A DNA stretch of 64,000 bases from Cucumis sativus (taxonomy: Eukaryota; Streptophyta; Magnoliopsida; Cucurbitales; Cucurbitaceae), in NCBI RefSeq assembly GCF_000004075.3, contig NC_026656.2, forward strand, positions 24,438,607 to 24,502,606. Reading direction: 5' to 3'. A program made the translations under genes and the position numbers. This document shows, one piece after another, positions 2,531 through 22,112 of this stretch. The notes under the pieces were generated by a model that did no database searches, had not been told where the DNA came from, and saw only the letters and a program-made list of their open reading frames with translations. Numbering within the stretch: position 1 is the stretch's first letter; every line of letters begins with the position of its first letter.

Positions 2531-5500
2531 ATGGCTGATTTCCTATGGACTTTTGCTGTGGAAGAAACGTTGAAGAAGGTGTTGAAGGTTGCAGGGGAGC
2601 AAACTGGCCTAGCATGGGGCTTCCAGGAACATCTCTCCAACCTCCAAAAATGGCTACTCAAGGCTGAAGCTTTCTTACGCGATATCAACATGAGAAAATT
2701 ACATCTTGATTCTGTGAGGATGTGGGTGGACGATCTTCAACATCTTGTTTATCAAGCCGATGATCTATTAGACGAAATTGTTTATGAAGATCTTCGACAA
2801 AAGGTCCAAACAAGAAAAATGAAGAAGGTGTGTGATTTCTTTTCTCCTTCTACCAATGTTTTGATCTTTCGTCTTAACATGGCAAAAAAAATGATGACTC
2901 TTATAGCATTGTTAGAAAAGCATTACCTTGAGGCTGCTCCTTTAGGACTAGTGGGAAATGAAAATGCAAGTCCTGAGTTCGATGTTATTGGTCAATATCG
3001 AGAGACAATTTCAGAACTCGAAGATCATAAGATTGTGGGGAGGGATGTTGAAGTTGAAAGTATAGTGAAACATGTGATTGATGCTAGCAATAATCAACTT
3101 ACATCTATCCTACCCATTGTTGGTATGGGTGGATTGGGAAAAACAACTTTGGCAAAGTTAGTTTTCAACCATGAGTTGGTTAGACAACATTTTGATAAAA
3201 CTGTTTGGGTTTGTGTCTCTGAACCATTTATTGTCAACAAGATTTTGCTAGATATTTTACAAAATCTAAAAGGCACCATTTCTAATGGAGGGGATAGTAA
3301 GGAAGTTTTACTTCGTGAACTCCAAAAGAAGATGCATGGCCAAAGATATTTTCTTGTGCTTGACGATGTTTGGAACGAAAATTCTTTTCTATGGGATGAG
3401 TTGAAATACTGTTTGCTCAAGATCACTGGAAACTCTAAAAATAGTATTGTTGTGACTACAAGGAGTGCTGAAGTTGCAAAAATCATGGGAACATGTTCTG
3501 GTCATCTTTTAAGTAAATTATCTGATGATCATTGTTGGTCCTTGTTTAAAGAAAGTGCAAATGCATATGGATTATCAATGACTTCAAACTTGGAGATCAT
3601 TCAAAAAGAGTTAGTCAAAAAAATTGGTGGTATACCATTGGCTGCACGAGTTTTGGGAAGGGCAGTAAAATTTGAAGGAGATGTTGAGAGATGGGAGGAA
3701 ATGTTGAAAAATGTGTTAAGCACTCCACTCAAAGAGGAAAATTTTATTTTGTCTATATTAAAATTAAGTGTGGATCGTCTACCGTCATCTGCATTAAAGC
3801 AATGTTTTTCATATTGTTCAATTTTTCCCAAGGATTTTGTGTTTGAAAAACAAGAACTAATTCACATGTGGATGGCACAAGGTTTTCTTCAACCACAAGA
3901 AGGAAGGAACATGACAATGGAAACTGTAGGAGACATATACTTCAAGATCTTGTTGTCACACTGCTTATTTGAAGATGCCCATGAAACAAAGACAGAGGAA
4001 TATGAGATACCTGATCTGCTTGAATTTGAAACAAGGCCAGAAGAATATAAGATGCATGATCTTGTACATGATATTGCGATAGAAATTTCAAGAGATCAAA
4101 ATTTGCAACTAAATCCTAGCAATATATCAAAGAAGGAACTTCAAAAGGAGATTAAAAAGGTTGCATGCAAGTTACCCATGGTTGATTTCATTCGACGGAT
4201 TCCTTGCAATATAGGCCAACTAACATTTTTTGATGTTGAGATAAGGAACTTTGTTTGTTTGCGAGTTTTAAAGCTATCAACGCTGCCTAGTGATAAGTTA
4301 CCGAAGTCAATTGGTCAATTGAAACACTTGAGATATCTAGAAATTGCATGTTATTTAGGTAGATTAAAATTTCCAGAGTCTATTGTTTCTCTTCATAATT
4401 TGCAAACACTAAAGTTTCTATACTCATACGTTGAAAAATTTCCGATGAACTTTACAAATTTGGTAAGCTTAAGGCACTTGAAATTATGGTCAAATGTTGA
4501 CCAAACGCCTCCACATTTAAGTCAATTAACTCAACTTCAGACATTGTCTCATTTTGTGATCGGGTTTGAAGAAGGTTGTAAAATTACTGAATTGGGTCCA
4601 TTGAAAAACTTGCAAGGTTGTTTGAGTCTTTTGTGTTTGGAGAAAGTTGAAAGCAAAGAGGAAGCCAATGGAACAAACTTGGCAGAAAAGGAGAAGTTAA
4701 AAGATCTACACTTAAGTTGGTCCAATGAAAGAAAAGATAACAACAATTACAATGATTTGGAAGTGTTGGAAGGACTTCAACCAAACCAAAATCTACAATC
4801 ATTAGGAATCTACAACTTTGCAGAAAGACGTTTGCCTAACAAGATTTTTGTTGAAAATTTAAGCGTGATAGGTTTGTATGGTTGTAATAATTGTGAAAAG
4901 CTTCCAATGCTTGGACAATTAAACAACCTAAAGAAACTTGAGATTTACAGCTTCCATGGCGTCCAAATTATAGACAACGAGTTCTATGGTAATGATCTAA
5001 ACCAAAGAAGGTTCTTCCCAAAGCTTGAGATATTTGTAATGTGTGATATGATCAACTTAGAGCAATGGAAAGAAGTAATGACAAATGATGCATCATCAAA
5101 TGTTACAATCTTTTCCAATCTTAAATGCTTGGAAATACGTGGATGTCCCAAATTAACAAAACTTCCAAATGGACTACACTTTTGTAGCTCCATTCGACGT
5201 GTGACAATAAACCAAGGTTCAAATTTGAGCATAAATATGAGAAATAAGCCGAAATTATGGTATTTAAACATTGGTCCATTAGATAAACTGCCTGAAGATT
5301 TATGTCATCTAATGAATTTGGGGGTAATGAGAATTGTTGGAAATATGCAAAATTATGATTTTGGCATCCTTCAGCACCTTCTTTCCCTTAAAAAAATTAC
5401 TTTAGTCGAGGATGAGTTGAGCAACAATAGTGTAACACAAATTTCTGAACAACTTCAACACCTCACTGCCTTGGAATTTCTGTCCATTGAAAATTTTGGA

Positions 5501-5746
5501 GGCATTGAAGCTTTGCCAGAATGGTTAGGAAACTTTGTATGTTTGCAAACACTCAGTCTTTATAACTGCAAAAATTTGAAAAAACTGCCTTCTACAAAAG
5601 CAATGCTACGTCTCACTAAATTAAATCAATTGTATGCTTGCAAATGTCCGATGCTACTACTCGAAGAAGGTGATCCAGAGCGAGCAAAACTTTCCCACTT
5701 TCCAAACATGTTGGTTCAGCGCAACGGTTATCAGAAGTGTATTTAG
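2531..5746 (+). CDS. CC-NB-LRR (CNL) disease resistance protein, Fom-2-like
   Basis: This intronless frame encodes 1071 residues. The product should be a cytosolic immune receptor that senses pathogen effectors and switches between ADP- and ATP-bound states. Residues 1-150 form an Rx-type coiled-coil region, with an EDVID-like acidic stretch at about 67-82 (DDLQHLVYQADDLLDE). The NB-ARC domain follows: P-loop GMGGLGKT at 198-205, RNBS-A near FDKTVWVCVSE, kinase-2 LVLDDVW at 275-281, RNBS-B IVVTTRS, GLPL-type GGIPLAA at 366-372, RNBS-D CFSYCSIFPK at 425-434 and MHD at 508-510. Degenerate leucine-rich repeats run from about 555 to the end. All nucleotide-binding motifs look intact, and the W that ends kinase-2 fits the non-TIR class. 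The overall sequence recalls the melon Fom-2 family from memory. The MHD region is preceded by an imperfect 15-residue tandem copy of itself. The start is the first ATG of the frame, and MADFLWTFAVEE is a typical N-terminus for these cucurbit proteins. Confidence 0.93.
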   Translation: MADFLWTFAVEETLKKVLKVAGEQTGLAWGFQEHLSNLQKWLLKAEAFLRDINMRKLHLDSVRMWVDDLQHLVYQADDLLDEIVYEDLRQKVQTRKMKKVCDFFSPSTNVLIFRLNMAKKMMTLIALLEKHYLEAAPLGLVGNENASPEFDVIGQYRETISELEDHKIVGRDVEVESIVKHVIDASNNQLTSILPIVGMGGLGKTTLAKLVFNHELVRQHFDKTVWVCVSEPFIVNKILLDILQNLKGTISNGGDSKEVLLRELQKKMHGQRYFLVLDDVWNENSFLWDELKYCLLKITGNSKNSIVVTTRSAEVAKIMGTCSGHLLSKLSDDHCWSLFKESANAYGLSMTSNLEIIQKELVKKIGGIPLAARVLGRAVKFEGDVERWEEMLKNVLSTPLKEENFILSILKLSVDRLPSSALKQCFSYCSIFPKDFVFEKQELIHMWMAQGFLQPQEGRNMTMETVGDIYFKILLSHCLFEDAHETKTEEYEIPDLLEFETRPEEYKMHDLVHDIAIEISRDQNLQLNPSNISKKELQKEIKKVACKLPMVDFIRRIPCNIGQLTFFDVEIRNFVCLRVLKLSTLPSDKLPKSIGQLKHLRYLEIACYLGRLKFPESIVSLHNLQTLKFLYSYVEKFPMNFTNLVSLRHLKLWSNVDQTPPHLSQLTQLQTLSHFVIGFEEGCKITELGPLKNLQGCLSLLCLEKVESKEEANGTNLAEKEKLKDLHLSWSNERKDNNNYNDLEVLEGLQPNQNLQSLGIYNFAERRLPNKIFVENLSVIGLYGCNNCEKLPMLGQLNNLKKLEIYSFHGVQIIDNEFYGNDLNQRRFFPKLEIFVMCDMINLEQWKEVMTNDASSNVTIFSNLKCLEIRGCPKLTKLPNGLHFCSSIRRVTINQGSNLSINMRNKPKLWYLNIGPLDKLPEDLCHLMNLGVMRIVGNMQNYDFGILQHLLSLKKITLVEDELSNNSVTQISEQLQHLTALEFLSIENFGGIEALPEWLGNFVCLQTLSLYNCKNLKKLPSTKAMLRLTKLNQLYACKCPMLLLEEGDPERAKLSHFPNMLVQRNGYQKCI

Positions 5747-7596
5747 ATTTTTTCGTTTTTTTTTGCACTCTTGAAAGCAAATGTGTACTAAAGTTTTCAA
5801 AACAGACTTGTATTATTATTATATGCTCCAACCACTTGATACTCTCAATATACATTTCATCCACTAAAAAGTGGTCATGCATACAAAGTAGGAAAATTAT
5901 GTGATAGTTTAAATATCTTATCAATTTTTCTATAAGTTAACTACCTAATTTAATAATTATTTTCTAAATAATTAATTTTTTTTTCAAAAGTTGTAAACTT
6001 TTTAAAATTTCCACTTGTTTTTTTAGTTTTCAAATTTTGATTTGTTTTCTAAAAAGACAGAGATAAAAAGGAGACATGAAAGTAAGAATGTAGTGGTATA
6101 AAAGATATTTATGAATCTAATTTTTGGAAAAGAATAAAATAGTTACCAAACCAAACTTTAGTTTATAAAATATCTATGTGAAAAATCTTGTCAAATTAAC
6201 TATAAATTTTGAAATTGCAATTTAGATAAGGTACGAGAATGTCACAATATTTATAAAATTTGAAATAATAGAGATTAAAGTACGAAAATTGATGAAAGAA
6301 TGTATTTACAAAATAGAGCAAATTTTCAAATTATATTCCTGATGGACATCAATAAACAAATTAAGAAAGAAAATTTTGATTCTAAAACCTAAACAAATTA
6401 ACAACGAAAAACATTATAAAAAGTGATTTTTGTTTTAGTGACGAGCAGAACAGCCATTTTCATTTTCAAGTAATGTTATGTATTAATCAATATTTATTGA
6501 TTGGTATCGATAAAAAAGATTGGTATAAGTCACTTCGTTTCTTTTCGTCCAAGTTACTTGTTTTTTTGTCCAAGTTTCTTCTCTTTTTGTCTAAACTCAC
6601 TTCCTTTTTCCTTTGTAAGTTTCGGGAATATCCTCATTCATAGGTCTGATGATCCACATCTATGAATTGAAAGGGCTTGACCAATAGATGGCGGTGACGG
6701 CTGCATTTTGCCTCAGTATAAGTAGAAGTTGTGAGGGAGAAGAAGAAAGCCAAAAGTGAGGGGGAAGGAGAAAGCCGAAAGTGAGGGAGAAGTAGAAAGT
6801 CCAAAGTGGGGATCAACTCTTTGTCCCCTAATCTCATTTTTTTTTACAAATGAAAATATTTTTCATTGGTTTTATTCTCGAATGAAATTTAAATAATATA
6901 CTATTTCAAAACATGACTTAAAAACAATAAATTCACTTGGCAACTACTTTTTTATAAATTAATTATGTAAATTAAATTTAGTTGAATTTAATACATGTTA
7001 TTACACAAAATTGTGATATCACACAATTTAACAAGTCCTTTATTTATTATATCAAATCTAAGATTTTGAGCTATACAAAACCAAAATTTGCATTCCAAGC
7101 CATTCTTCTTCCTCAAATATAAAATCCTTGAACCGACTACTATACATTCTGATTTGGAATTTCTACTCATGAAATCAAATTTCATTATAGGATGCAATGG
7201 TTTCATATAATCCAAATAAGCCAAAATGTGCCCTTTGATGATTCACCAAATCCACTCTCCTTCTGTATTGAGCAGCATCATTTGGTCCTTTTCCAAAAAG
7301 ATTTCAACTTCCAGAGGGGCTCACAACTCTTATGTAAAAATCAATATCTAATCTAATCATAAGCCTTCCGTAGATGGCCTAAGCCTAAACAATTCAGGAT
7401 TCAAGGATATGACCATAACAAAAATTTACTCAGCCAAAAGCTAAATGTGATCGATAAGCTTAATCAGGCAAGAACTAACGGACAAACTAAATTGAACACA
7501 AAATGTGAGAAAGCCAAGACAAAGTACAATGATCTCATAATTTTACAACCAACATCAGCAGTCAAGCAAGCCTGTTCAGAAGGTTTCTAAGAGAAA
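5747..7596. other. Spacer between NLR and snoRNA cluster
   Basis: The first part holds the 3' untranslated region of the NLR gene. The rest is AT-rich and I recognise no gene in it. It contains a purine-rich 25-bp tandem repeat (6731-6805) and, at about 6535-6605, three diverged copies of a motif like ttcttttcgtccaagtt. The last 200 bases may belong to the 3' end of the snoRNA transcript. Confidence 0.55.
6731..6805. repeat. 25-bp purine-rich tandem repeat, three copies
   Basis: Units start at 6731, 6756 and 6781. Each begins gtgaggg(a/g)ga and ends in a form of aaagcc(a/g)aaa. The reverse strand gives the small serine-rich frame seen here, which is best explained as a by-product of the repeat. 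Confidence 0.88.
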
Positions 7597-7722
7597 AAGG
7601 TTTCAGGCATCCAAGGAAGGAATAAAGCAGCATTAGCTCTCAAGCCTGGCGAAGGCGAAAGCTCTTAGGCGGCCACTGCGAATGTTCTGAGAAACAAGCC
7701 TTCGGAATTGTCATCATCAACA
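7597..7722 (-). ncRNA. SNORD14 (U14): U14 C/D-box snoRNA, copy A
   Basis: On the minus strand this has a C box ATGATGA (complement of 7711-7717) and a D box CTGA (complement of 7603-7606). Between them are the two diagnostic U14 elements. Domain A has ACATTCGCAGT, which pairs with the 5' part of 18S rRNA in U14 of all eukaryotes. Domain B, just before the D box, has CCTTGGATG, the guide for 18S 2'-O-methylation. The spacing (about 115 nt) fits plant U14. One base next to the D box differs from the neighbouring copy (GGATGC instead of GGATGT). It is the last RNA recognised in this minus-strand cluster. Confidence 0.85.
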
Positions 7723-7797
7723 CGCAATCCAAATCATTCAAACAACAAAACATGGTGCAAATTTTAACTAAATTCAAGTATATAAAAAGAATTTAAA

Positions 7798-7918
7798 GAG
7801 CTCAGACATCCAAGGAAGGATAAAGCAGCAATAGCTCTCAAGCCCGGCGAAGGCGAAAGCTCTTAGACGGCCACTGCGAATGTTTTGAGAAACAAGCCTT
7901 AGAGATATCATCATTGTT
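7798..7918 (-). ncRNA. SNORD14 (U14): U14 C/D-box snoRNA, copy B
   Basis: This is a second, near-identical U14 gene about 75 bases upstream (in transcript sense) of copy A. The C box ATGATGA is the complement of 7908-7914 and the D box CTGA that of 7802-7805. Domain A (ACATTCGCAGT) and domain B (CCTTGGATGTCTGAG) match the conserved U14 sequence as I remember it from animals and plants. It directs 18S rRNA processing and one 2'-O-methylation in the nucleolus. Of the three U14-like copies in the window this one has the most canonical boxes. Confidence 0.88.
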
Positions 7919-7978
7919 CGCACAAGATTCAGATAAAAACACAATCGAACTGATAATACGAATCAAGCAAATTGAAGA

Positions 7979-8075
7979 AAGTGCTCAGACAGCCAAGGGT
8001 ATATCAATCAGATACCGGGAATAATACCCAGATCAGAAACTCTAGTCCACAAAAAATAGCATCGTCACAGCACTT
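7979..8075 (-). ncRNA. C/D-box snoRNA, first RNA of the cluster
   Basis: A 7-bp terminal stem (AAGTGCT/AGCACTT) closes a 97-nt unit. The C box is GTGACGA (complement of 8062-8068), one base off the RTGATGA consensus. The D box is CTGA (complement of 7985-7988). Two internal CTGA motifs could serve as D'. The guide next to the D box reads ACCCTTGGCTGT, which would pair with an rRNA target containing ACAGCCAAGGGT or part of it. I cannot name it. It is upstream of the two U14 genes in the same sense and shares their promoter. A second copy at 18423-18519 has a perfect C box. Confidence 0.75.
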
Positions 8076-8276
8076 GAACGAACATATACATATATATAAT
8101 AAAAAAAAATATGAAACAGAAGATAAGGATTGAATGAAGTTGAAAAGGGGGAAAAATTAAAAGTTTTAGAATTAAAAACTAGGAAACGGAGGAAACGATG
8201 AAGAATGCACCAAAATAAACTGTTCGTGAAGAGATGAAAACGAAGAGTGGTGGAATGGAGGAGTAGGGATGGTGAG

Positions 8277-8370
8277 TTTATAGGGCATCGACTGATAAAT
8301 TAGGGTTTTTGTGGAAGATGGTTTAGGGTTTCTTTGATGATTGTATCGGCCTCAACTCATGGGCTGGGCC
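8277..8370 (-). promoter_or_regulatory. snoRNA cluster promoter: site II, telo-box and TATA elements
   Basis: Read on the minus strand, this stretch has two site II motifs, whose plus-strand forms TGGGCT and TGGGCC are at 8360-8365 and 8365-8370. Two perfect telo-boxes AAACCCTAA are complementary to 8323-8331 and 8300-8308. A TATAAA box is complementary to 8277-8282. This combination is typical of plant ribosomal protein genes and of polycistronic snoRNA genes transcribed by RNA polymerase II. The first snoRNA starts about 200 bases downstream. Confidence 0.78.
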
Positions 8371-8375
8371 TCAAA

Positions 8376-9179
8376 CGTAATAATACTCAGTACCACCCAT
8401 TTGTTTCACTGTTTTTATGTTTATAGTGGCATTAGAAGATATAATTGAGAATTAGATTCACATTATTAAAATTAAAAATATTACAAAATTGATCATAATC
8501 TAATTTTCTATTTTACAATCTTGCTATTCTCATGGTTATTATCCATAGAATTGCTTCAACCTTTTTAGTAATGTAATTTAATTAGATATTGAGAAAAAAA
8601 AAATGAAGGTTTTTACGTATGATCTATTCTTATAAAAACATGAACTGAATTATAACTTGTTTCAAAATTTTCATAAAATAACATCAAACTCAAAAGCTTT
8701 TCTAGGATGGTTCCATTTCAAAAAATATTCAATCCAACTCATTTTTTTGTAAACCTTTTTTATGACATTATTAAACATTTTTATGATATTATATATGTCA
8801 TTCTCTTTGACGACCCCTTTAGCCTTTAGCAATCGTATTCAATGTAACACCAACATTTCACCAAAGCATTCATTCCGACTAATATTTTACCAACAATATG
8901 GAATGTTATTGATTTTATCAAAAAATGAGACAAGGAAAGTCACTGTTAGATATTCAATTGCATTCTTATTCTCTACTCTTCACTTTTTCTCCAATCGTTT
9001 TCTCTCAGAGTTTCAGGTGCACATTATATTTGTCCATTGCTTTCATTTTTGTTTAGTTCCAGACAAACGATCACTATAACCAAACGGAGAGAATGCCTAT
9101 TCTTTTACAATGTAGGTTTTTTCCAAACTCACTCTAAAAAAAATGGAAGATCGCCCAAATAAACTTAAGTGATGCCTTA
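8376..9179. other. Spacer, no gene recognised
   Basis: AT-rich sequence upstream of the snoRNA promoter. A 105-codon plus-strand frame at 8762-9079 begins with a hydrophobic stretch but has no family resemblance, no clear promoter and AT-driven composition, so I do not call it a gene. Confidence 0.55.
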
Positions 9180-10810
9180 AAGAATACTAAAATATCATTT
9201 AAGTTTATATGGACAATCGTTCATAAATAACTGAACAATCATGCAGAAAAACCTAGGCAGTCGTTTACTAAAATCTTTGTGATTATTTATGTGGGTTGGA
9301 CGATTGCTCGATATTTATGGCAACGTTGCTTCACATATTTGTACAATTTGGTGGAAAATGAGACAAGTTTAGAAGCAACTATGTTAGAGGTAAGATGAAA
9401 GGCTTGAAAGTCATAAATGATATATAACGTGCACTGAATTTGTGAGTATTATGCACCAACGACTGAATATCAATTCGAATATGTTTCATATATACATATC
9501 AAGTGTGTTATTACGATCTATTACTTCCAGCTCTCCTAATTGAAATAATTGATGATGAAGATCTTAGCTTTTTCTAGAAGGAAGTGATGCATCCAAATGT
9601 CGTTGTTCGTATCAGTAACACCAAAATAAAATGTAGAATAGATACAAGAGATATGTACTAGCACGATAATCAGACGATTCCAATAGTTTCATCACACATG
9701 ATATTCTCAATATGTCTCAATGTATGATAATATTGTACCATGTAACTTGGGTATCGAGAGAAATGGATCTTGTGATGGTCACAACATCCAATCAAGATGC
9801 ATCACAGTTTGATGGCAATGAATATGGTCAACATTCACGTCCACAAACATTTCCATCAAATTGACTACACCAAACTTCATTTCACTTTAGTACATATCAA
9901 TCCACTATGTCAACCCAAACCATTTGTAGATATATCATAATAATTAGAAGGTCATATTGTGATGACATCATTTTAATCCCTCGTGATTTTCTCGATGAAA
10001 AAGATATAAGGGTTGATCAAATTTTCTTTTTGAATTTAAGCATAATTTATCAATTAAATTGTTAAATACTCACAATAAGAAAGAACTTTGATTACCGTGT
10101 AAAGAAGCCAACGAAAAGCTTGCTAACCATACATTGTTTGATTGGAGGAATGCAATGGGAGTTTGTGCTAGTAGATTGTAAGGGAGTGATTCATTCAAAG
10201 TGATGAAGTACCAAAGCGACCATGCATAGTTCTTTTAAAATTAGATTGAGTAATCATCGACAAGCAAAAAATTGGGTTATTGGACACATAAACAAGCAAT
10301 ATATTATCGTGTTACTTTCTTTGACAGGAATATATATATTTCTGTCTTGAGACTTGTAAGATGAATCTTGAGTGCGTACAGGTCCACCTAAGTATTTGAG
10401 GTATTGCTGCTTACTTACTCTTGGTGACTATGAACTTATTGGGAGTTGATACGCTAATGTAACCTTTATAACGTCTTTAATCTCTGAACATGTTTTCATC
10501 TTTCTCCTTAAGGTACCTTGGTTCAAGAATGAGCTCTTGTAGCCTTTTACCGCATGTGTCCCTTTCTATAGTTAACTCGGTCAGCCACAACTCAATTATC
10601 AAATAAATATCTTCTTGAGTGAAGGTTACTCTTTCTACCCCAATATATTGAACCTTTGTAACATCCCATCTCCTGTCTTTTACCTCCCTTAACAAGAAAT
10701 GGTGGAACAAAATATGTTTTCCTAAACATTTCCATATGGTCTATGGTATATTTATTCTTAATCACAGGGAATTTTTTAGACTTGGCAAGAAACGGTAGCA
10801 CGGAAATATT
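9180..10810. mobile_element. Decayed MULE-like DNA transposon with DUF1985-type frame
   Basis: Two traces support this. On the plus strand at about 10130-10330, pieces such as HRQAKNWVIGHI recall the N-terminal DNA-binding region of MuDR-type transposases, but stops and frame changes break the reading. On the minus strand, 10477-10801 has overlapping frames with FPVIKNKYTIDHMEMF and HHFLLREVKDRRWD, which recall the DUF1985 region found next to Ulp1-like protease genes captured by plant MULEs. Melon MULEs carrying Ulp1-like genes have been described, which makes this pairing plausible. No terminal inverted repeats could be set, so the boundaries are approximate. Confidence 0.5.
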
Positions 10811-11729
10811 TCTCTTCAGAGATAGCCATTTAGAAAACTATAATATACATTTTAGTAATTAATTAAATATTTAATCAATATTTTGATGAAAAAAATCTGA
10901 ATTTTTATTGACAATTTTATTATTTTGAATAATCCATAACTTAAAGAACTTGAAATGATTCTGATACCTCTTGAAACATCCAAATCAGAGTTCAAATAAA
11001 AAAATATGGCTAAAAGATGGTGATGTGACAGCCAAATAATCAAATCAAACCAATTAGAGAAAACGGGAGGAGTAACACAAGTAGCTTTTGTTCCTTTTTA
11101 ATTGGCTTTTAAAATGAAAATAAATTTAATATTATTATTTATCTTAATTTTTTAAAGTGATGGTGAACTTGTTTTTATTGCGTTTTAAAACAAATTATTT
11201 TTTAAAAAATATATTATTATATTATTGTTTGTGTTTGTGTTCAACGACTTAAATCTCAATCATTTAATTTTCTTTTACTTACGTTGAATGACCCAAATTA
11301 ATTTTAAATTTCAATATCTTTTCCATCTTCTTAAATTCTTCATTTTTCCCAAAATCTAATTGACTTCATCTTGAGTACGAAAATTATTGTTACATACTAT
11401 TTTATCACTCTTGTTATTTAACATAAATTAGTTTTTTTTTTTTTTTTTTACTTTTTCACTCCCCATCTAGGGTTACCATGTGAGTCTAACAGTTAGTTAG
11501 TAGAAGATATGGTGCATGGAGAAAGGTTAGAAATGGTAAATGAGGTAAATTGTGAACTTATGGATATGATGAAATGCCATTACTCTATGCTTCAAAGGAA
11601 TAGCATTCACCTTGTAACTCAGATGATGAAAGGAATCATGAAAGATGGTTTGAGTTTAAAGTATTTGAGAAAGAGAGAGAACATTTTTATTGGGTATGGT
11701 TTTGTTGATTTTTTTTGCTGTGGAATATA
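10811..11729. other. Spacer, no gene recognised
   Basis: AT-rich sequence with a T-run near 11432-11449. The small frame at 11509-11730 (73 codons) resembles no protein I know and has no supporting context. Confidence 0.5.
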
Positions 11730-12810
11730 ATAATTTTATGGATAATTAATTGATTATTTAATTATTTAATAAAAGTTATTATTTTATTGTATAATAATAT
11801 ATGCATGATTATGTTATTATATTTTAAATGTTCATAATCGATTATTATGATAAATTAAGATTAGTATGAGCTATATAATTGATAATCATGGGATGATTAT
11901 ATATGTAGAGACATAAATTATAATAATATTTTCTCATTAGAAAATATGAATTAGACTAACCTCTTTTGAGATTATTATATGGACATGTGTCATAAATAAT
12001 TGATTGTTTTGATCCTTAGACCTGAGAATATCATAGTGTGAAATATAAGAATTAATCTATCTGATGGAATCAAACGTTATCTTTAATCGAATAATTATAA
12101 AGGTTATACTAGAATACGTTATGAATTATGTAGTTGACAATAATTAATCAATATGGAATTTATCCCTCTTATTATAGAGAGATATTTCTAGCCCATCGAT
12201 TAAATGTGATCGTGGAAATGCATAATCGTACTATAAATGAATTAATAAGGGTATTAATATCATTTATTATTTCAATATGCTTATTGATCGAGAAAGCAAT
12301 TGAATTAGATTAAGTAAATTTGTCTATGCCTTATATTAAAATTATAGATATCGCGTGATAAAATAATTAAAACAATAATTATATTAGGATATGTTGAATC
12401 ACTAACTTAATTTAATAAAAGTAACTATAATGTCTTGCTAGAGACCAATTATGGCTTATGGACGAGTAATGAGCCAATTGTCTTATTAAGTTAACCTAAT
12501 AGGTCGCACATGAAAGAACTGAGTCAAATTTGTCGTAATTAATAAATACAATTGGAGATTTGCCATACTATTAGAAAACATAATTAATAAGTCCAATTGG
12601 AGAACTGAAAGCTTATTAGAAATCCTAGGCTTATTAGGAAACTTCAAGAAGTCTATAAATACGACCTTATGAGTCTTATTTTACATACAAGCAAAGACAT
12701 AAAACTCGTTCAAAATAGAAAGAGTCAAAATTTTCACTTTGTGAGGTTCTAACCTTCGAGGAGTCGAATTCCCAATTCGTGTGTGGATACTGTTAGAGAG
12801 CGCATTTGAT
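11730..12810 (+). mobile_element. LTR-like relic (possible solo LTR)
   Basis: This AT-rich block has no coding content. Near its end it has a TATA box in GTCTATAAATACGACC (about 12651-12666) followed by leader-like sequence up to about 12810, a layout typical of a plant LTR with promoter and start of transcription. No matching second LTR or target duplication was found. The family is unknown and the ends are approximate. It is an old, non-coding fossil if the call is right. Confidence 0.35.
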
Positions 12811-12879
12811 TTTGCATTGTTTTGGTGATACGAATTGGAACATTGTTCTTATCAAGAACATATAACAAAATTTTCAGAC

Positions 12880-13050
12880 TTTATCAATAATAGACATTGA
12901 TATACTTCTATTAGTGATATTGATAGAAGTCTATCAATAAATATTATTGATAAAATGCAAAATTTTGGTATAGCTCGTAAATATTTTAATTTATTTTGCT
13001 ATATTTAAAAATGTCATTTTTTTATAAAAATAAATAGATAAAGATATTTG
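12880..13050. repeat. Imperfect inverted repeat of the TATCAATGATAG type
   Basis: Around 12885-12955 the motifs ttatcaataatagaca and tctatcaataaatattattgat face each other around the centre attagtgatattgata. Similar TATCA(C/A)TGATAG-like runs recur at 56800-57160, so this looks like one family of small dispersed non-coding elements. The flank tgctatattt also recurs near other repeats in the window. Confidence 0.45.
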
Positions 13051-13570
13051 ATATTCTCTATAACATTTAATGATTTATAATTTAATTAATAATATTACAT
13101 TTGATTTTAAAATGATAAAATTATCCATTATGAGAAAGGTGAGAAACGAAAGGTAAAATTGTGAAAAAAAAGTTTCTCCTAACAGCTATATATATAAATA
13201 AAAGAAAAAGGTTTCCACACGATTCGAGCGCGCAACCCACCTCTCTCGAACTTCTCTTCCGCTCACCATCTCTCTCTCGCACGCCGGTCACGGCGTAGCT
13301 CAACGCGGCCGAAATCCCTAACCCACCGATTCTCCCTCTTTCTCCACCGATATTTCTCTCTTCTCTTATCAACCACCAACTTTCCATTTATCGGAGTTCG
13401 TTCGACGCATTTGACACCGTCAGCCTCGAGGTCGGATCTGTCTCTCTCTTCTAGTTCGCTTTCCTCATACATCGTGCCATTCAACATCATCCAACTTCGA
13501 TTTCACGATTTCACTGTCCCCTACTGCCGCCTTCGCTAAGTCTAGAAGTTTTGGTAAGCTTGGTAACATC

Positions 13571-13670
13571 TCGTTGTTTAATTAGAAGTGTTTCGAATAC
13601 CTATTAAGTTTCGGCTTGATTCATTGTTTAATTAGAAGAGTTTCGAATATCCATTAAGTTTCGGCTTGAT
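13571..13670. repeat. 50-bp tandem duplication in the SIC leader intron
   Basis: Units 13571-13620 and 13621-13670 share nearly every base, including attagaag(t/a)gtttcgaata and ttaagtttcggcttgat. The period is exactly 50. Confidence 0.9.
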
Positions 13671-13865
13671 TTCCATACTACTTTCCTTGTCGCATGATAG
13701 TGGATGCTTGATTTTGAATTTAGAAGGTAGTTAGAATATTGTCCATTGAAGTTAAGAGTATTTGCTAAGTTCTTGGTAAGGTTTGGAGTAACTTTAGAGA
13801 TCTTGAATGCCCATTAAGTTTATTTGTTACAGTTGAATTAGCCATGGTACTCCGGTCCTAGAGTT

Positions 13866-14030
13866 GAATGTTTTTTTTATATCCGTGAATGTCCGGGCCA
13901 GCTCACGCACCTTGATTAATCTCACGGGACAGCCACTGACTCTACAATATTTGAGTGTCAAGGAAAGCGGTAGGAAATTAATTCGTAGGTAGGTGGTCAC
14001 CATGGATTAAATCCACGACGGATGTGATCT
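13866..14030 (-). mobile_element. tRNA-derived SINE-like element
   Basis: Read on the minus strand, the block starts with a polymerase III B-box-like GGATTTAATCC (complement of about 14003-14015) and ends in a short A-tail, ATATAAAAAAAAC, at about 13868-13880. The body has GCTGGCCCGGACA and CCCGTGAGATTA, which I recall as part of a repeat widespread in dicots. The A-box could not be placed with confidence, and no target duplication was established. Confidence 0.5.
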
Positions 14031-14039
14031 CTCTTCTTT

Positions 14040-14750
14040 CCTTACTCAGGTGGTTCATTGTTAGAGAGGGGAGGAGAGATGCACATGTTTGGATTCCTAA
14101 TCCTAGTCAGGGATTTTATTGTGATTCTTTGTTTTGATTGTTGTTGGATCCCACTCCCCCTTCGGTCTTTGATGTGGCTACGAGGACTAAGATTCTGAAG
14201 AAAGTTAGGTTTTTTATTTGGCTGGTCTTGCTTGGCCAGGTTAACATTGTTAATAGGTTTGTTAGGAGGACTTCACTTGTCGGGCCTTCTTGTTGTTTGC
14301 TGTGTCGAATGGCGGAGGAAGATCTTGATCACCTTTTCTGAGATTGCCATTTTGCAAGGGCTGTATGGTGCTCCTTTCTTCATGAGTTCAGTTTTAGCTT
14401 TGCCAGCTCAAGGAGTGTTAGAGTGACAATTGAGGAGTTCCTTTCTCCATTCACTTTTTGGTGATGAGGGTGGCTTTTTATGCACTATTATTTGTGATAT
14501 TTGGAGCGAGAGGAATGATACAGTGTTTAGGGGTAGAGAGAGGGGAATAGTGAGATTTGTTCTTTGCCTAGATTTCAAGTGTCTCTTTGGACTTTGGTTG
14601 CAAAGAACTTTTGTAGCTATTCTATAGGTAATATTTTACTTATTTGGTCCCCCTTCCTTTAAAAGGGTGGTTTTGTGGGCTGGTTTTTTTTTGTATGCCC
14701 TTGTGTTCTTTCATTCTTTTTCAATGAAAGTTGTTTTTATCAAAAAATGC
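14040..14750 (+). mobile_element. LINE 3' fragment with reverse-transcriptase zinc-binding domain
   Basis: Frames here read KVRFFIWLVLLGQVNIVNRF, then CCLLCRMAEEDLDHLF and, after a stop, DCHFARAVWCSFLHEF. This is the zf-RVT domain (C-x2-C ... H ... C) at the end of plant LINE ORF2 proteins. Further in-frame stops and a frame change near 14335-14500 show it is dead. The 3' end reads TCAATGAAAGTTGTTTTTAT then CAAAAAA, which fits a LINE tail. It lies in the sense orientation inside the probable SIC leader intron. Confidence 0.75.
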
Positions 14751-15150
14751 GTGTGGGGACCATGGAGAGGTTTTAGTAGGGTTTTAAGGATTAGTGTGAG
14801 GGCAGAGTGTTTTGGAAGGAACGAGAGATCAGTAGAGGAATGACAACTTTCTTGAACAGCCAGGGACCTTAAGTATTCTTGTGTTTCTTGATCTTCTTGC
14901 TTGTATTTGTTATTCTTGCTATTTCCCTCGTAATCATTGGAACCCATGGTTATTTGATGTTTGACAGTAATTGCAATACTAATACATAGGGTGGAAGCTA
15001 ATTCCCCGTTCTTGGATTGTGGTGTATTTTTTATTTGTAGGAACTTAGGTACCTAACAGAGTCTTTGTGTTTCATTGTGCTTGTCGAATTTGTTGGGTGG
15101 TTTCAATTATGACGAATGATAATGATTGAGAAATGATATTGTTAGGTTGA

Positions 15151-17716
15151 ATGGAAGAATCAGAAAAACGAAGGGAGAGGCTGAGAGCAATGCGAATGGA
15201 AGCTGCTCAGGCTGATGTAGCTAATTATGTCGAAACTTCTCTGCCTAATCATCTGTCTAATCCATTGGTTGAATCATCAGCTACCATGGTAGGGCAATTA
15301 GCACCATGTACGGCCCCAAGATTTGACTATTACACAAATCCTATGGCTGCATTTTCTACTAGTAAGAAGAAAGGGAAGATTGAGAATCAACCTGTGTCTG
15401 ATAATTTTGTTCCTTACCACCACAACACTTCTTCAACAACTTATTTTCCACCAACTTTTCCAGGTAATTTTTTGTTTTCTTAAATTACTTGTGCATAAAA
15501 ATATATGAAGGGTCGTATAATGGGAATAAGATACTGAGTTACTTGTTTGTTAATGGATGTTTGATTTTAAAAATGTCGAATTGCAAATAGAGGGATCAAA
15601 TATGGTATAATGTGTCGGATAATTATGTTTCCTCTCCATAGAAACATGTTACAGAAAAAATAACTTCCCTATGAATAAAGTTACGTAATCTATTAACAAA
15701 AACTAGTGAAAGGTCCTCCAACTTGAGGTTGTAAAATGAACTAAGTCACAAATTCCTTTGATTTTAGCTTTCCTCTTTAATATGGTTTGGTGCCAAAAAA
15801 GATAAGTCAAATGATCCATACGGATAAGATTAACACTGGTAGTATACTGACAATGAAGGCAGTATTGAATTGCTGTAATTTTGCATGGCACGTTGACAAA
15901 TTTCAAGGGTGGGACACTATTGCTTGAGCGAGTGTGAGTTTGTTGATAGTGTGGTGTTACTTTTTTAGATGGTACATCTTTTCACTAGGAAGGGTTATTT
16001 GATTGAACTTTATCGTTCAACAGCTAACGGTAACTTACTAGGAGCTTAAGGGTCTACTTTTTAGAGCTTTTAGGTTTTAGAAATGGTTATCGAGTGATGC
16101 TATTAGGAAGCGGAAGTGTTTTTGGTCTAGAGCAATTAACAAAAAACCTGTGTCATGGAGCCAAGCCATTAAGCTTTTGATATGCCTCTATTACTGCAGT
16201 AAAGACGGGCTATGCTTTCAAAACCCGAGAAACCAACAGGACATTTGTAATTTTACTTGCATGTTTCAATAAAATAAGGTAGAAAGAAAAGAAATTTACA
16301 GGCTATATGTTTCAATGGAGACAGTCCTTAACTATATTTTGAAGAAAGTAGAGATTTATTTCCTGTTGTATCCCATACCTATACTCCCTACATGAAGTGT
16401 CAAAGCAAATTCCCACAAATAAGGTGGCTTGGCTGCACTCTTGTTGGACATCCCCGTAGCAAATTGTGCATTGCTTTCTCAATCAAAGCTGTTGGATTGG
16501 AATGTATTCTAAGAGATGCATCATACTTTAGGGGGATTTGCAGTTCTTAGAGATACATAACTTGCAAGAAATTTAATGATAAAAGTTAAATCTCTCCTTT
16601 ACAGCTTCTTATTTGTTTGATTAACTAATATTAAATGTCACAGATATTAAAAATTTAATTAGTGTCTCGGAATAAATGTTTTTGTCTGTTTCACAAGCTT
16701 TCCTTGGGGGAATCAATTTTGTTTATAACAGAAATGCACATCACTCTCTCTATGCTCGTGTAGTTTGATTATAGTTCCTAATTCCTCGCTATGGTTTGAT
16801 GTCATACCATCGTGGAAGCTGTAATATTTCCTTCGTATTGAGTTAATATGTGATGTTATTGGTGGAATTAGGAAGAATCCCTTCTGGTGTTCAGTTATCA
16901 TTTTTGTTAATGCTTTTTAATTGCATTTGGTTCCCATCCTCGGTGTGGTCTTTCATCCAACGTATGGTAGTTTGGGAATCACTTTTCTCCTTCAAGTATA
17001 AATATACTATTGTGTTGTAGGATTGGGAAACCCTGAAATGTCTCCCTCTTCTACTCATCAAATCCATCAAATATTCACTTGACCAGAGAACTTTCTATGC
17101 ACTAGGTGATAGTGAAGCTGGTGGCCATGGTAGACCAGGAATGCCTAGACCTTATGCTGTGAATCAAGGAGATCTACATATGTGGCGTGGACCGAGAGGA
17201 CCATTTGTCAACCAGTTCCCTACCCAGCCACCGAGGGAGATGAACTCCCCCAGCCATGTATCTGGACCAAGAGGCAACCCTTACACTAATCCTACTCAAA
17301 ACAGGGCTAATTACCGTAGTTCAAGCCCTAACCCTGGGTTCCGAGGCAGTTTTAGTCCAGGTAGAGGCAGCTATGGACATCATGGCAATATGACTCCTAG
17401 TCCAAGATTTGGCTATGGACGAGCTACTGGTTCTCATGGTCGTCATTCTTCATCAGACAAATCTGGACCAGAACAATTTTACAACATCTCCATGCTTGAA
17501 GATCCCTGGAAGGTTCTGCAACCTTGTATTTGGACGACAATTGCTCCATTGAGTAACTCTGCAAAACCTTCGGAATATTGGATTTCCAAGTTTGGTACAA
17601 AGAAAGCAAGAGTTTCAGATTCCTCTTCTAGCAGGTCAAGCTCTCAACAACCTAGCCTCGCCGAGTACCTGGCTGCCTCCTTCAAGGAAGCAATCGAGGA
17701 AGCACCAAATGCGTGA
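15151..17716 (+). CDS. SIC: SICKLE homologue, two coding exons
   Basis: Exon 1 is 15151-15463 and ends CAG|GTAATT. It begins MEESEKRRERLRAMRMEAAQ, the hallmark N-terminus of plant SICKLE proteins. Exon 2 ends at 17716 and is rich in proline, glycine and serine. It contains FYNISMLEDPWKVLQP, the conserved C-terminal signature. Arabidopsis SICKLE is a nuclear proline-rich protein of about 320 residues needed for miRNA biogenesis and normal splicing. Joining 15463 to 17106 keeps phase (G|GT = Gly, then DSEAGGHGRPG) and gives about 307 residues. A stronger-looking acceptor TTGTGTTGTAG ends at 17020. From there the frame reads GLGNPEMSPSSTHQIHQIFT and stops, while the downstream frame upstream of DSEAGG reads DQRTFYALG. 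This suggests a frame disturbance near 17075-17085, or an assembly error; the 17105 acceptor avoids it. The intron is about 1.6 kb. Confidence 0.82.
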
Positions 17717-18422
17717 AACATTTTATTCAGGCATTTCATGCTTACTGTAGTACTCAAGTTCAGCTTTGTCGAAAGCCCAGCCTAATTTTTCTCTATAGAC
17801 TGGTTTGATGTTGTAAATCTATAGTGATTATTATGACAGTTCTGTCTCTATGTTATGTTTAGTTAGTGATGTTTTTTTATGAATCTTGTTTAGATTATGT
17901 ACATGATTCAGCCTCTATTAGAATCCTTGTTGTCAAATGCTCTTCTTTGTTAAGAATTTAATAGGATTGAGTTCTCAATTCTCGTAGTTGATCCACTATA
18001 TAATACTTAAATTTAATAGGATTGAGTTCTCAATTCTCTTATTTGAATAGATTGATTTCTTTTTGCCTATGTAATTGAGTCTTGTTCCTACCCTCTCTAT
18101 CTTCCCGTAATGTTTGTTTTTTCACCTACAACTACTGTTAGTAGTTACTGAAAATTATAATTTGTTTTTCAAACTATGTTAAATGAAGGGAAATTATTTT
18201 ACTTTGGTGCATTCTTTAACATTTCCCACCTCCTCGATTCCACCATTCTTGGTTTTCATCTCTTCATAAACATTTGATTTTGGTGCATTCTTTATCATTT
18301 CGTACGTTTTATAGTTTTTAATTTAATTAAAAAAGCTTTCATTTTTCTCCCCCCTTCAACCTCATTCAATCCTGATCTTCTGTTTCGTGTTTTCTGTTAT
18401 ATATATATATATATGTTCGTTC
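17717..18422. other. SIC 3' flank and degenerate snoRNA leader
   Basis: The 3' untranslated region of SIC is followed by a 29-base direct repeat: 17955-17983 and 18010-18038 both read aatttaataggattgagttc plus caattctc-type sequence. From about 18215 the sequence resembles the transcribed leader of the minus-strand snoRNA cluster (for example ggttttcatctcttca and ttggtgcattctt). I see no site II or telo-box here, unlike at 8277-8370. Confidence 0.6.
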
Positions 18423-18519
18423 AAGTGCTGTGATGATGCTATATTTTATGGACTAGAGTTTCCGATCTGGGTATTATTCCCGGTATCTGATTGGTATACC
18501 CTTGGCTGTCTTAGCACTT
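18423..18519 (+). ncRNA. C/D-box snoRNA copy with altered D box (probable pseudogene)
   Basis: This is the paralogue of the unit at 7979-8075 on the other strand. The terminal stem AAGTGCT/AGCACTT is kept and the C box GTGATGA (18430-18436) is perfect. The D box position (18510-18513) reads CTTA instead of CTGA. The guide ACCCTTGGCTGT is unchanged. A D-box change of this kind normally prevents snoRNP assembly, so the copy is probably non-functional. It lies about 700 bases downstream of SIC in the same direction. Confidence 0.65.
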
Positions 18520-18569
18520 CCTTGATTCGTATCATCATCTTGATTGTCTTTTTATCTGAATCTTGTGCA

Positions 18570-18692
18570 AACAATGATGGTATTCTTTAAGGCTTGTTTC
18601 TCAAAGCATTCGCAGTGGCCGCTTAAGAGCTTTTGCCTTCGTCGGGCTTGAGAGCTATTGCTGCTTTATCATTCTTTAGATGTCTGAGTTCT
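18570..18692 (+). pseudogene. U14 snoRNA copy, degenerate
   Basis: This aligns along its whole length with the two minus-strand U14 genes. The C box is ATGATGG (18574-18580), with the last A lost. Domain A is changed to GCATTCGCAGT, and domain B reads CATTCTTTAGATGTCTGAG where the others have CCTTCCTTGGATGTCTGAG. The D box CTGA (18684-18687) remains. Changes in both the C box and the guide suggest decay. Confidence 0.72.
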
Positions 18693-20209
18693 TTAAATAT
18701 ACGTTGTCCACTAATGGTGTGTTAGCTAACGTTCATAGTTCCACAAAGAGAGCAATATAATAAGAAAGAATGTTCTTTGACTATAAAAGATGTCATTAGG
18801 TTAAATAGTTTATATATCGTGCTTCTCTCTAAACTCAAAAGCGTAAATAACCATAAATAATAGAAAAAGATGAAATTCTACCGTAAATGTGAAATAGATA
18901 AAAATTGAGTTACTCGATAAATGTGTAAACTTTAATGCTGATCTTATTATTGAAGTCGAGTTGTTTAACACCAATTTAGAAGCCGATAGATCAAACAATC
19001 CCCAAGTTCCAAAACTGAACAATCATGTTTCTAAGTTTGCCTAAAGAAAAAATCAATCTCTCGTCCATAGTTGTTGAAAGAAAATTCAAGAAATTTCAAT
19101 TCTCTGATTGAAAACAACGTTAAATTTCCTCGTCTCTTACATTTTTTTTTGTTCTCACCAAAACTCATTATATCTCTTTCAATTTCCCAAAAATAAATAC
19201 GATTGTGGAGATGAGAATTATGTACTTGTTGTACGGTCTTGTCAATGATCACTGCATAGTTTCAAAAAAATGATTTCCTTTTCCTACTTTTAAGTTATTT
19301 AAGTTATAGGTTTTCGAGGCCTCTACAAATTGTTTAGAAAAAATAATTGATTATTACAAAATGTGTGCTATAACAATTTGAATATAAAACTTTAAATGCA
19401 AACTATTTTAGTTTTATACTAATATGTGATAGAATTATAGACTAAAATAGTTTGTATTTTAGGTGTAAAGTATCGGAGTATAAGTTATGATAGTTTTTAT
19501 GTTCATCGTCCGGGGTGTGATTTATTTTAGTTTATTTATTTGCGAGTGTTCGAGTAAGTTTACAAGTATTTTAACTAATTTTACGAGACAACTTGTTTGA
19601 CTCTACAACACTTGTGTTGTTATCTTAAAAGAATATTGATGATAAACTTACAAGATATCATAGATAGTAAAAGAAAATTGTAAAGAGGAAAAAATCAATG
19701 TTTTGACCAACTTCTAATTAGAAACTTTAGAGGAGATTTTGTTTCTTTGTTTGAGGTGGTTTAATCTTTAATCTAAAATTTTGAAACAATGTTTTATCTT
19801 CTTAGTTTGAACCGATTCAATTCTAAGTCGACCCAAGCTTGATTTATCGGTGCAAAAATTTGCACATGTGGATCCTCGATGGTAGCCACTTCACATTTGC
19901 TAGATCCTAAAACAACTTTAACAATATATAGATACTAAATCGTAACCACGATAAAGAAACTAAAATGTTATTTTTAAACGTTCAAGAACCAAATTGTTTT
20001 TTTAGTAAATATACAATGGACAAATGTTTATTACAATCTAAATCGTCACTATCAAGACTAGATTTGATAATTTTTTAAAAATACTTTTTTGTGTTTGAAA
20101 GTTTTACTTATTTTCTTGAAATTTGATTGTTGCAGTCTTTTATATATTCTAAGTTAACATTTACATTTTTAGCTAAATTTAAATAATAGTAGTATACTAT
20201 TTAAATGAT
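18693..20209. other. Spacer with a perfect 14-bp inverted repeat
   Basis: No gene is recognised. At 19399-19412 CAAACTATTTTAGT is the exact reverse complement of 19441-19454, with a 28-base loop, and pairing continues imperfectly outward. The rest is AT-rich. Confidence 0.55.
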
Positions 20210-20266
20210 GCGTTTGTAGTCCAAGGGTTAGGATAATTGCCTTCCAAGCAATAGACTCGGATTTGA
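20210..20266 (+). pseudogene. tRNA-Gly(TCC) relic, 3' end lost
   Basis: The sequence begins GCGTTTGTAGTCCAAGGGTT and continues with AGGATAATTGCCTTCCAAGC. That is the acceptor 5' strand, D-arm and anticodon arm of plant nuclear tRNA-Gly with anticodon TCC in the loop CTTCCAA. The T-arm is degraded (ACTCGGATTTGAG in place of ACCCGGGTTCGAC) and the 3' acceptor strand is missing. It could also be the tRNA-like head of a SINE, but no such body was recognised. Confidence 0.75.
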
Positions 20267-20879
20267 GAGATAAACTAGCTAGTGTCAATTTAAAAATTCA
20301 AACAGTTAGCATTAATTGGATAGGAAAGGACAAAAGCTATTTCCAGTCATATCCTCGAGTCTCTCTCTTCCTCGAGAAACTTAGCATAACCTAAGGTAAG
20401 TGATTTGTCTACTGGATAGTAAGGATCACTACTTACGTTATGTTTTGTGTTCCCTCAAGTTCATTGTGATCCTTAATGTCATTACTTATGTAATGTTATC
20501 ATTCATACATTATGCCTATGTTAATACCTAAATAAGAAACATGTATTCATAACAATGGTTGTGAGAAAGCAAACAAGAATAAAATTTTACTTGAAATGCA
20601 TGTGAAAATTCACACCAACAGTGCTTCTCGACATAATTTTTTCTTCTCATTCTTCTTGTTAGACATGCACATCCCCAAATATTTAGATATTTTTCTATTT
20701 AAATTGACTCGAATTATTTGAATTTAAACTTGGAATTTTAAAAATTTAAATGGTTATTTGGATTAGATAATTAGATTTAAATTAAAGGACACTAAAGTTA
20801 AGGATTAAATGAGAAATTGAGTTTATGTAGAGAGTTTTTGAATTTTTAAGAAAGGGAAAGGAAATAGGAAAATCACAAT

Positions 20880-21600
20880 TCCAAATTCTCCCCCTCCCTA
20901 TTTGCCTTAAAACATGAGCTGCTTTATTGACAATTTTCTCATTAAGCCCACTGTAGAATCGATCCATGATAGTTTCCTCATCCTCTTTCTCATATATGTT
21001 AACCTCCTCAAGTAGTAACAACTCTTGATAGCAAGTGTTCACACTTTTGCTCCCTTGTTTCAAAGCTTGCAGTTTGTGGAAACCTTTAGGAACCAAACAC
21101 TTACTCATTAGCACCTTCATTTCTTTCCATGAGAGTGTTGCATGATTTCCAGTTCTTCTTCTGTGCGATAATAAATACCTCCACCATATTACAACGTAGA
21201 AACAATAAGTTTTACCTTTCTCTTTTTATTGTAGTGATGATATTTAAATATCACATCAGTTTACTTCTCATACAAAAGATATGAGGAATAAATTGATGTA
21301 ACATGATTTGATCTTGATGTAACATGATTTGATCAACATGGTAACTGTTTTCTCAAACCTCTTCTTCCTCTTAGATATGTCACTCCCCTCTCCTATGCCG
21401 ATTTATTATAGTGTCAGAGTTAGATTCACTTTGCTCTGAGTTTTCTTCCTCATCAGAATTCTCCACAACCTGTCTCCTTACTTTGAGTATTTTTCTAGCT
21501 TGAAACCTTTGTTCTAGTTTATCTAACCTTACGTTCATTAAGGTCTCCAAGTGTTGCATGACTTTCTAATTGAGTTCTTGTTACTGTCCATGTGGAGTAC
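20880..21600 (-). mobile_element. Ty3/Gypsy gag relic
   Basis: Minus-strand frames give MKVLMSKCLVPKGFHKLQAL and, beyond it, EETIMDRFYSGLNEKIVN. These match the gag region of plant Ty3/Gypsy retrotransposons. An upstream piece around 21420-21560 reads like the N-terminal part of the same protein. It is a broken fragment without LTRs or pol nearby, so it is an old fossil. The ends are approximate. Confidence 0.65.
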
Positions 21601-21757
21601 CTCTATAGCTACAAAACAAAAACAAGTGAAAGAAAATGTGGACCTCACAAATCACTCCTTCACACATGTTTCTATCAATAGGTAATGTCCACTTGTGTTC
21701 ACACTCAACATGGTACAATATCAATACCAAACAGATTGAAGAAAGAAAAAGAAATAC

Positions 21758-22112
21758 CTGACTGAGGATCTGCCCGTCTGTAGAAAACAGAACTCGTGGA
21801 CAGATTTAGCTCATAGCCTGGAAGGGCATGCACATGGATAGAGAACAGTTTGTCATGGTCAGCAAAGAACCTCTTCCATAATGGCAGCATGGGCAGAGGG
21901 CCTCTAGTCAAGAACATGAAGCCACTTTTGGCACTCTTTTGAAGGGATAATAATTCTCTCTCTTTGACACCATTGAAGCTCTCAGAAAAGCTCATCATCA
22001 GACATAGCATGAGTCAGATTATCTGGATGGATAAACATATGAAAGCTAGAATAATCCCTTCTCTCACATATGTTTGAATCAGTAAAATTCTCTTCCACAC
22101 GAGTAGTGGGAA
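21758..22112 (-). pseudogene. GT14 (core-2/I-branching) glycosyltransferase exon, broken
   Basis: The minus strand reads THAMSDDELF, then RASMVSKRENYYPFKRVPKV and then FMFLTRGPLPMLPLWKRFFA followed by DHDKLFSIHVHALPGYEL. This is the first conserved block of the plant DUF266/GT14 family, type II Golgi membrane glycosyltransferases of cell-wall glycans. The end PQSG/GTATTT near 21757 looks like a splice donor, as at the first exon end in functional genes. Two one-base losses shift the frame, one after DDELF and one between PKVA and FMFL. No downstream exons are seen; a Gypsy relic follows instead. I conclude it is a truncated pseudogene. Confidence 0.78.

Follow-up and report, generated by a model that had tools for sequence, protein, structure and literature searches.

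A partial copy of a U14 snoRNA gene cluster in cucumber lacks the donor-like promoter and is very probably decaying

We analysed a 64,000-nucleotide (nt) stretch of the Cucumis sativus genome (contig NC_026656.2, positions 24,438,607 to 24,502,606; hereafter the window) in which a minus-strand cluster of box C/D small nucleolar RNA (snoRNA) genes, comprising snoZ157 and two copies of U14 (SNORD14), is accompanied on the plus strand by an inverted partial copy. This plus-strand block has recognisable limits, lacks promoter motifs found at the minus-strand locus and differs from it by changes that fall almost entirely on one side. It is very probably a promoterless copy evolving free of constraint, and the alternatives considered below do not all exclude that reading. 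The original prediction, made from the sequence alone, of one intact and one decaying cluster is supported by the polarity of the changes (14:1), by the position of the plus-strand U14 as an outlier among seven copies, by its weaker domain B and by the start of the block downstream of the promoter.

The minus-strand cluster had been described as one C/D snoRNA and two U14 copies behind a promoter, and this agrees with both the Rfam matches and the motifs (Table 1). U14-1 and U14-2 each have the covariance score, the C and D boxes and the domain B pairing of a U14 RNA. A motif scan of the 700 nt upstream of each cluster's first snoRNA found two site II elements, two telo-boxes (AAACCCTA) and a TATAAA box at this locus, an arrangement that the excerpted text of PMC4660826 describes for plant polycistronic snoRNA genes. 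Such scans call for some caution, because in the 700 nt upstream of another U14 cluster, at C2:12.74 Mb, only a reversed telo-box and TATAAA are present and site II is absent. The minus-strand cluster is probably expressed as a polycistronic precursor: it would be an ordinary plant snoRNA gene, with an RNA polymerase II promoter composed of site II, telo-box and TATA elements and a single transcript from which snoZ157, U14-1 and U14-2 would be cut.

Two checks proposed with the original prediction, alignment of the loci and an Rfam covariance search, both upheld the relationship between them. The blocks 8269-7791 and 18224-18698 align in opposite orientation, about 10 kb apart, with 85% identity (55 substitutions in 468 aligned sites; E=2.6e-155), which rules out chance similarity and confirms that the same snoRNA and one U14 follow a similar leader in the same order on the plus strand. 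At gathering scores Rfam returns four matches in the window, and the plus-strand U14 turns up only in an E-value search (63.5 bits, E=5.9e-12); it is clearly homologous to SNORD14 although it lies 0.5 bits below the RF00016 cut-off. A search of 6500-20000 with E values up to 0.5 gave nine matches and no snoRNAs beyond these five, the other four being two weak snoZ157 cross-matches to a Tetrahymena family and two microRNA matches far below their cut-offs. When the whole genome (226.6 Mb, 88 contigs) was searched at the DNA level with 7560-8420, one other match spanned leader, snoZ157, spacer and U14 (query 152-630, opposite strand), and the remaining five consisted of a U14, or of snoZ157 with part of the leader; the reverse search with the plus-strand block agrees. 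A larger inverted duplication was considered and rejected, since blastn of 4500-12000 against 12001-26000 yields three matches only: the block itself, U14-2 against the plus-strand U14, and a 29-nt leader piece.

Table 1. Coordinates of the snoRNA loci, promoter motifs and intervening gene in the window.
Feature	Position	Strand	Basis and remarks
snoZ157 (RF00333)	8077-7977	minus	Rfam 65 bits, gathering cut-off 55
U14-1 (SNORD14, RF00016)	7919-7798	minus	Rfam 78.5 bits, cut-off 64; canonical C and D boxes, full domain B
U14-2 (SNORD14, RF00016)	7722-7599	minus	Rfam 75.6 bits, cut-off 64; canonical C and D boxes
Donor-like block: leader, snoZ157, spacer, U14-1	8269-7791	minus	Inverted match to 18224-18698
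Two overlapping site II-type elements (GGCCCA, AGCCCA; RGCCCA pattern)	8370-8360	minus	Motif scan and direct reading
Telo-box, first	8331-8324	minus	Motif scan
Telo-box, second	8308-8301	minus	Motif scan
TATAAA box	8282-8277	minus	Motif scan
Inverted partial copy of 8269-7791	18224-18698	plus	85% identity; without promoter and without U14-2
snoZ157 copy	18421-18521	plus	Rfam 60 bits, above cut-off 55; C box TGATGA 18431-18436, D box CTTA 18510-18513
U14 copy	18569-18691	plus	63.5 bits, cut-off 64, E=5.9e-12; C box TGATGG, weakened domain B
Extra 29-nt leader piece at upstream edge of copy	18198-18226	plus	25/29 identical to 18274-18302
SIC-like gene between the loci	15151-17716	plus	Putative gene model: span of two open frames taken as exons

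The copy starts at the equivalent of 8269, 8 nt beyond the last base of the donor TATAAA, and stops just after U14-1. It therefore lacks the second U14 and all five promoter motifs of the donor (two telo-boxes, two site II elements and one TATA box). Because the block starts downstream of TATAAA, the promoter probably did not decay in place: most simply, it was left out of the copying or went missing together with the upstream edge. The claim that neither site II nor a telo-box lies upstream of the copy holds in part: the 700 nt scanned contain no telo-box and no TATAAA, but a single AGCCCA is present at -647, about 60 nt beyond the stop of the SIC-like gene. The identity of the 29-nt leader piece at the upstream edge was reached by none of 500 dinucleotide shuffles, and this repeat indicates that the edge has been rearranged and that its original limit is uncertain by tens of bases.

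To place the changes on one locus or the other we used the remaining U14 and snoZ157 genes of the genome. Only the best candidates were scored, so these counts are lower bounds: at least seven U14 matches, of which six exceed the cut-off and the plus-strand copy is the seventh and lowest, and at least three snoZ157 matches, all above it. Across the U14 core of these seven copies the plus-strand RNA has 8 private changes in 96 columns that are invariant in the other six, against 1/89, 2/90, 1/89, 0/88, 1/89 and 0/88 for those six. U14-1 and the plus-strand U14 differ at 12 positions, nine of which could be polarised (eight on the plus side, one on the minus); the other three, in variable or flanking columns, were left unpolarised. 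For snoZ157, with the third gene at C2:23.52 Mb as outgroup, six of seven substitutions fall on the plus-strand copy, one of them beyond the D box, none falls on the minus-strand copy and one is unassigned. Pooled over both RNAs, the polarised changes number 14 on the plus strand and 1 on the minus (two-sided binomial p=0.001), the pattern of relaxed constraint. In a tree of the U14 copies the plus-strand RNA is sister to U14-1 (support 87/92, below the tool's star threshold), with an end branch of 0.084 versus 0.03.

The divergence of the two blocks is unevenly spread, with 19 differences in 222 snoRNA sites and 36 in 239 sites of leader and spacer (Fisher p=0.043; the 7-nt tail of the block, with no differences, was excluded from both counts). 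The corrected ratio of about one half is as expected when the minus-strand RNAs are constrained and the plus-strand RNAs are not. Plant neutral rates are 6.5e-9 to 1.3e-8 per site per year, at which the Jukes-Cantor-corrected leader and spacer divergence of 0.168 would put the age of the copy at roughly 6-13 million years, as an order of magnitude only. Decay of the methylation type was also considered: C>T or G>A accounts for five of the eight changes private to the plus-strand U14, but over the whole block seven CpG sites of the minus-strand copy are lost in the plus-strand copy versus four the other way, numbers too small to support such a claim.

The lesions named in the original prediction are read directly in the sequence. 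The D box of the plus-strand snoZ157 is CUUA (CTTA, 18510-18513) instead of CUGA, and thereby loses the G of a sheared G.A pair in the box C/D kink-turn. Domain B of the plus-strand U14 is altered to CATTCTTTAGATG (18670-18682), which weakens its pairing with 18S ribosomal RNA (rRNA): for an 18S fragment taken from the same genome, the predicted duplex has an energy of -9.5 kcal/mol, as against -24.3 kcal/mol in five copies and -23.4 in U14-2. For snoZ157 itself, a 25S rRNA word used to look for its target site had no match in this assembly.

The C box of the plus-strand U14 is, as predicted, ATGATGG (18574-18580). The C boxes are nevertheless a poor guide to decay here. That of the minus-strand snoZ157, overlooked in the original prediction, is the non-consensus UGACGA (TGACGA, 8067-8062), whereas the plus-strand copy has TGATGA, matching the UGAUGA of the Rfam consensus. 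The third snoZ157, at C2:23.52 Mb (L009:1501-1599), also has UGACGA, which is thus common to both snoZ157 genes whose D box is intact and is probably tolerated in this genome rather than damaged. With that gene as outgroup the plus-strand UGAUGA is a C to T change on the plus lineage, but it may instead be an older state retained, given the single outgroup and the Rfam consensus. Among the U14 genes, one at C6:24.65 Mb has the C box UGAGGA yet scores 75.9 bits, above the Rfam cut-off. Since UGACGA and UGAGGA both occur in copies above the Rfam cut-off, variation at that position is no sign of decay here, and box spelling alone is a poor criterion for it: of the two snoZ157 copies in the window, it is the decaying one whose C box follows the textbook, and the unusual C box belongs to the copy that looks intact. 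The C boxes therefore play no part in the verdict of decay, which draws on the distribution of the changes, the absence of a promoter, and the state of domain B and of the D box.

We propose that the plus-strand locus arose as an inverted partial copy of the transcribed part of the cluster (leader, snoZ157, spacer and U14-1), placed downstream of the SIC-like gene, most likely by copying at the DNA level. It has no promoter, and the genome contains six U14 and two snoZ157 genes in better condition, so it would have been free to mutate, with the broken D box and the weakened 18S-pairing domain B as the outcome. The copy is probably neither transcribed nor processed.

Several observations weigh against this proposal. 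Both plus-strand RNAs are still recognisable, snoZ157 above its Rfam cut-off and U14 just under its own; the terminal stem of the plus-strand snoZ157 (-7.9 kcal/mol) equals that of the minus-strand copy; domain A of U14 is intact; the C box UGAUGG could still form a G.U pair; and the contrast between snoRNA and leader divergence is borderline. The survival of domain A says little, because with 8 changes in 96 sites a 13-nt domain would be expected to go unhit about one time in three. The excerpted rules of SnoBIRD (PMC12309372) call a low-confidence prediction a pseudogene when the C box score is at least 2 and the D box score at least 1. When these rules are applied by hand, neither plus-strand RNA reaches such scores, and the terminal stem, at 6 pairs x -7.9 as obtained with another folding routine, would pass the rule for expressed RNAs. 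By themselves, these published filters, as excerpted, would not class the plus-strand snoZ157 as a pseudogene.

Domain A and the D box of U14, and the terminal stem of snoZ157, are all intact, which would fit a copy that is still transcribed, by read-through from the SIC-like gene or from a cryptic promoter, into a stable RNA such as a U14 with domain A only or a non-guiding transcript resembling a snoRNA-containing long non-coding RNA. The copy lies on the strand of that gene, about 500 nt beyond its stop, with no AATAAA in 17715-18230, and the excerpted text of PMC9175010 reports from Arabidopsis a snoRNA-containing long non-coding RNA without canonical guide activity. However, telo-box and TATAAA are absent within 700 nt upstream, the changes look unconstrained and domain A may owe its survival to luck, so that we regard a transcribed copy as very unlikely. 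More specifically, read-through could yield a split-function U14 whose domain A still serves 18S processing while domain B has ceased to guide methylation, which we consider extremely improbable.

Two further alternatives concern the origin of the copy. It could be a retrocopy, a partly processed cluster precursor that was reverse transcribed and inserted, rather than a duplication at the DNA level; the block runs from just downstream of the TATA box to shortly after the U14-1 3' end, as a precursor fragment might. The hallmarks of a retroposed snoRNA copy are nonetheless missing, with no poly(A) tract at 18698 and no target-site duplication between the flanks 18140-18240 and 18685-18790, where the only direct repeat of at least 7 nt is an 8-mer with both copies in donor-like sequence. 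Counted from the first T of TATAAA, the block also begins 13 nt downstream, nearer than a usual start site, and a retrocopy is on balance unlikely. It is highly improbable that the plus-strand locus is instead the older one, from which the minus-strand cluster derives, and that its promoter was lost by deletion. The rearranged 29-nt leader piece does show that the upstream edge of the plus-strand copy has been reworked, but by eye the minus-strand promoter has telo-boxes, CAGTCGATG and TATAAA in common with the snoZ157 cluster at C2:23.52 Mb and so looks inherited, and the C2:12.74 Mb cluster has, as its third U14, a degenerate gene similar to U14-2.

That degenerate gene (L011:4010-4122), which lies behind two good U14 genes, scores 29.4 bits and is an eighth U14 of the genome, found in an Rfam E-value search of its locus; it is the flanks of its C and D boxes that resemble those of U14-2. 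The U14 with the UGAGGA C box is the first gene of a U14-snoR99-U14 cluster at C6:24.65 Mb (L012:3161-3728) in which C/D and H/ACA genes occur together.

The gene that separates the two snoRNA loci is, as in the original prediction, taken to be SIC; its last open frame (17141-17713) encodes a PF15502 MPLKIP domain, and the open frame at 15151-15480 has no Pfam match. Also between the loci, at 13571-13670, are two 50-nt tandem units that are 92% alike. On the low-coordinate side of the minus-strand cluster, an uninterrupted plus-strand open frame of 1071 amino acids (2531-5746) encodes Rx_N, NB-ARC and LRR domains, as in a resistance-type gene. Elsewhere, at C2:12.846 Mb (L029, about 1465 to 1600), 18S rRNA sequence adjoins a stretch that by eye resembles a Copia-type polyprotein, a boundary that is either a junction of ribosomal DNA and transposon or an assembly join.

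A literature search joining Cucumis sativus, snoRNA genes and gene clusters found no paper. Compared with known systems, the minus-strand cluster resembles plant polycistronic C/D snoRNA genes, which, in the excerpt of PMC4660826, likewise have telo-boxes, site II and TATA elements before co-oriented snoRNAs. The snoZ157 cluster at C2:23.52 Mb is like it in its first snoRNA, the UGACGA C box, a related leader and promoter blocks that look similar by eye, but it has no U14, and four other snoRNA families follow snoZ157. The excerpted text of PMC12309372 regards snoRNA pseudogenes as what is left of earlier duplications at loci that do not favour expression. The plus-strand block is like them in being a partial duplicate with box and guide mutations and without a recognisable promoter, and differs from them, as that excerpt describes them, in that the terminal stem of its snoZ157 is still stable and this RNA would be let through by some published filters. 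Duplication followed by decay is the ordinary birth-and-death of snoRNA genes, and this locus offers a clear example of a plant snoRNA cluster copied in part, in which the copy, without a promoter, very probably decays.

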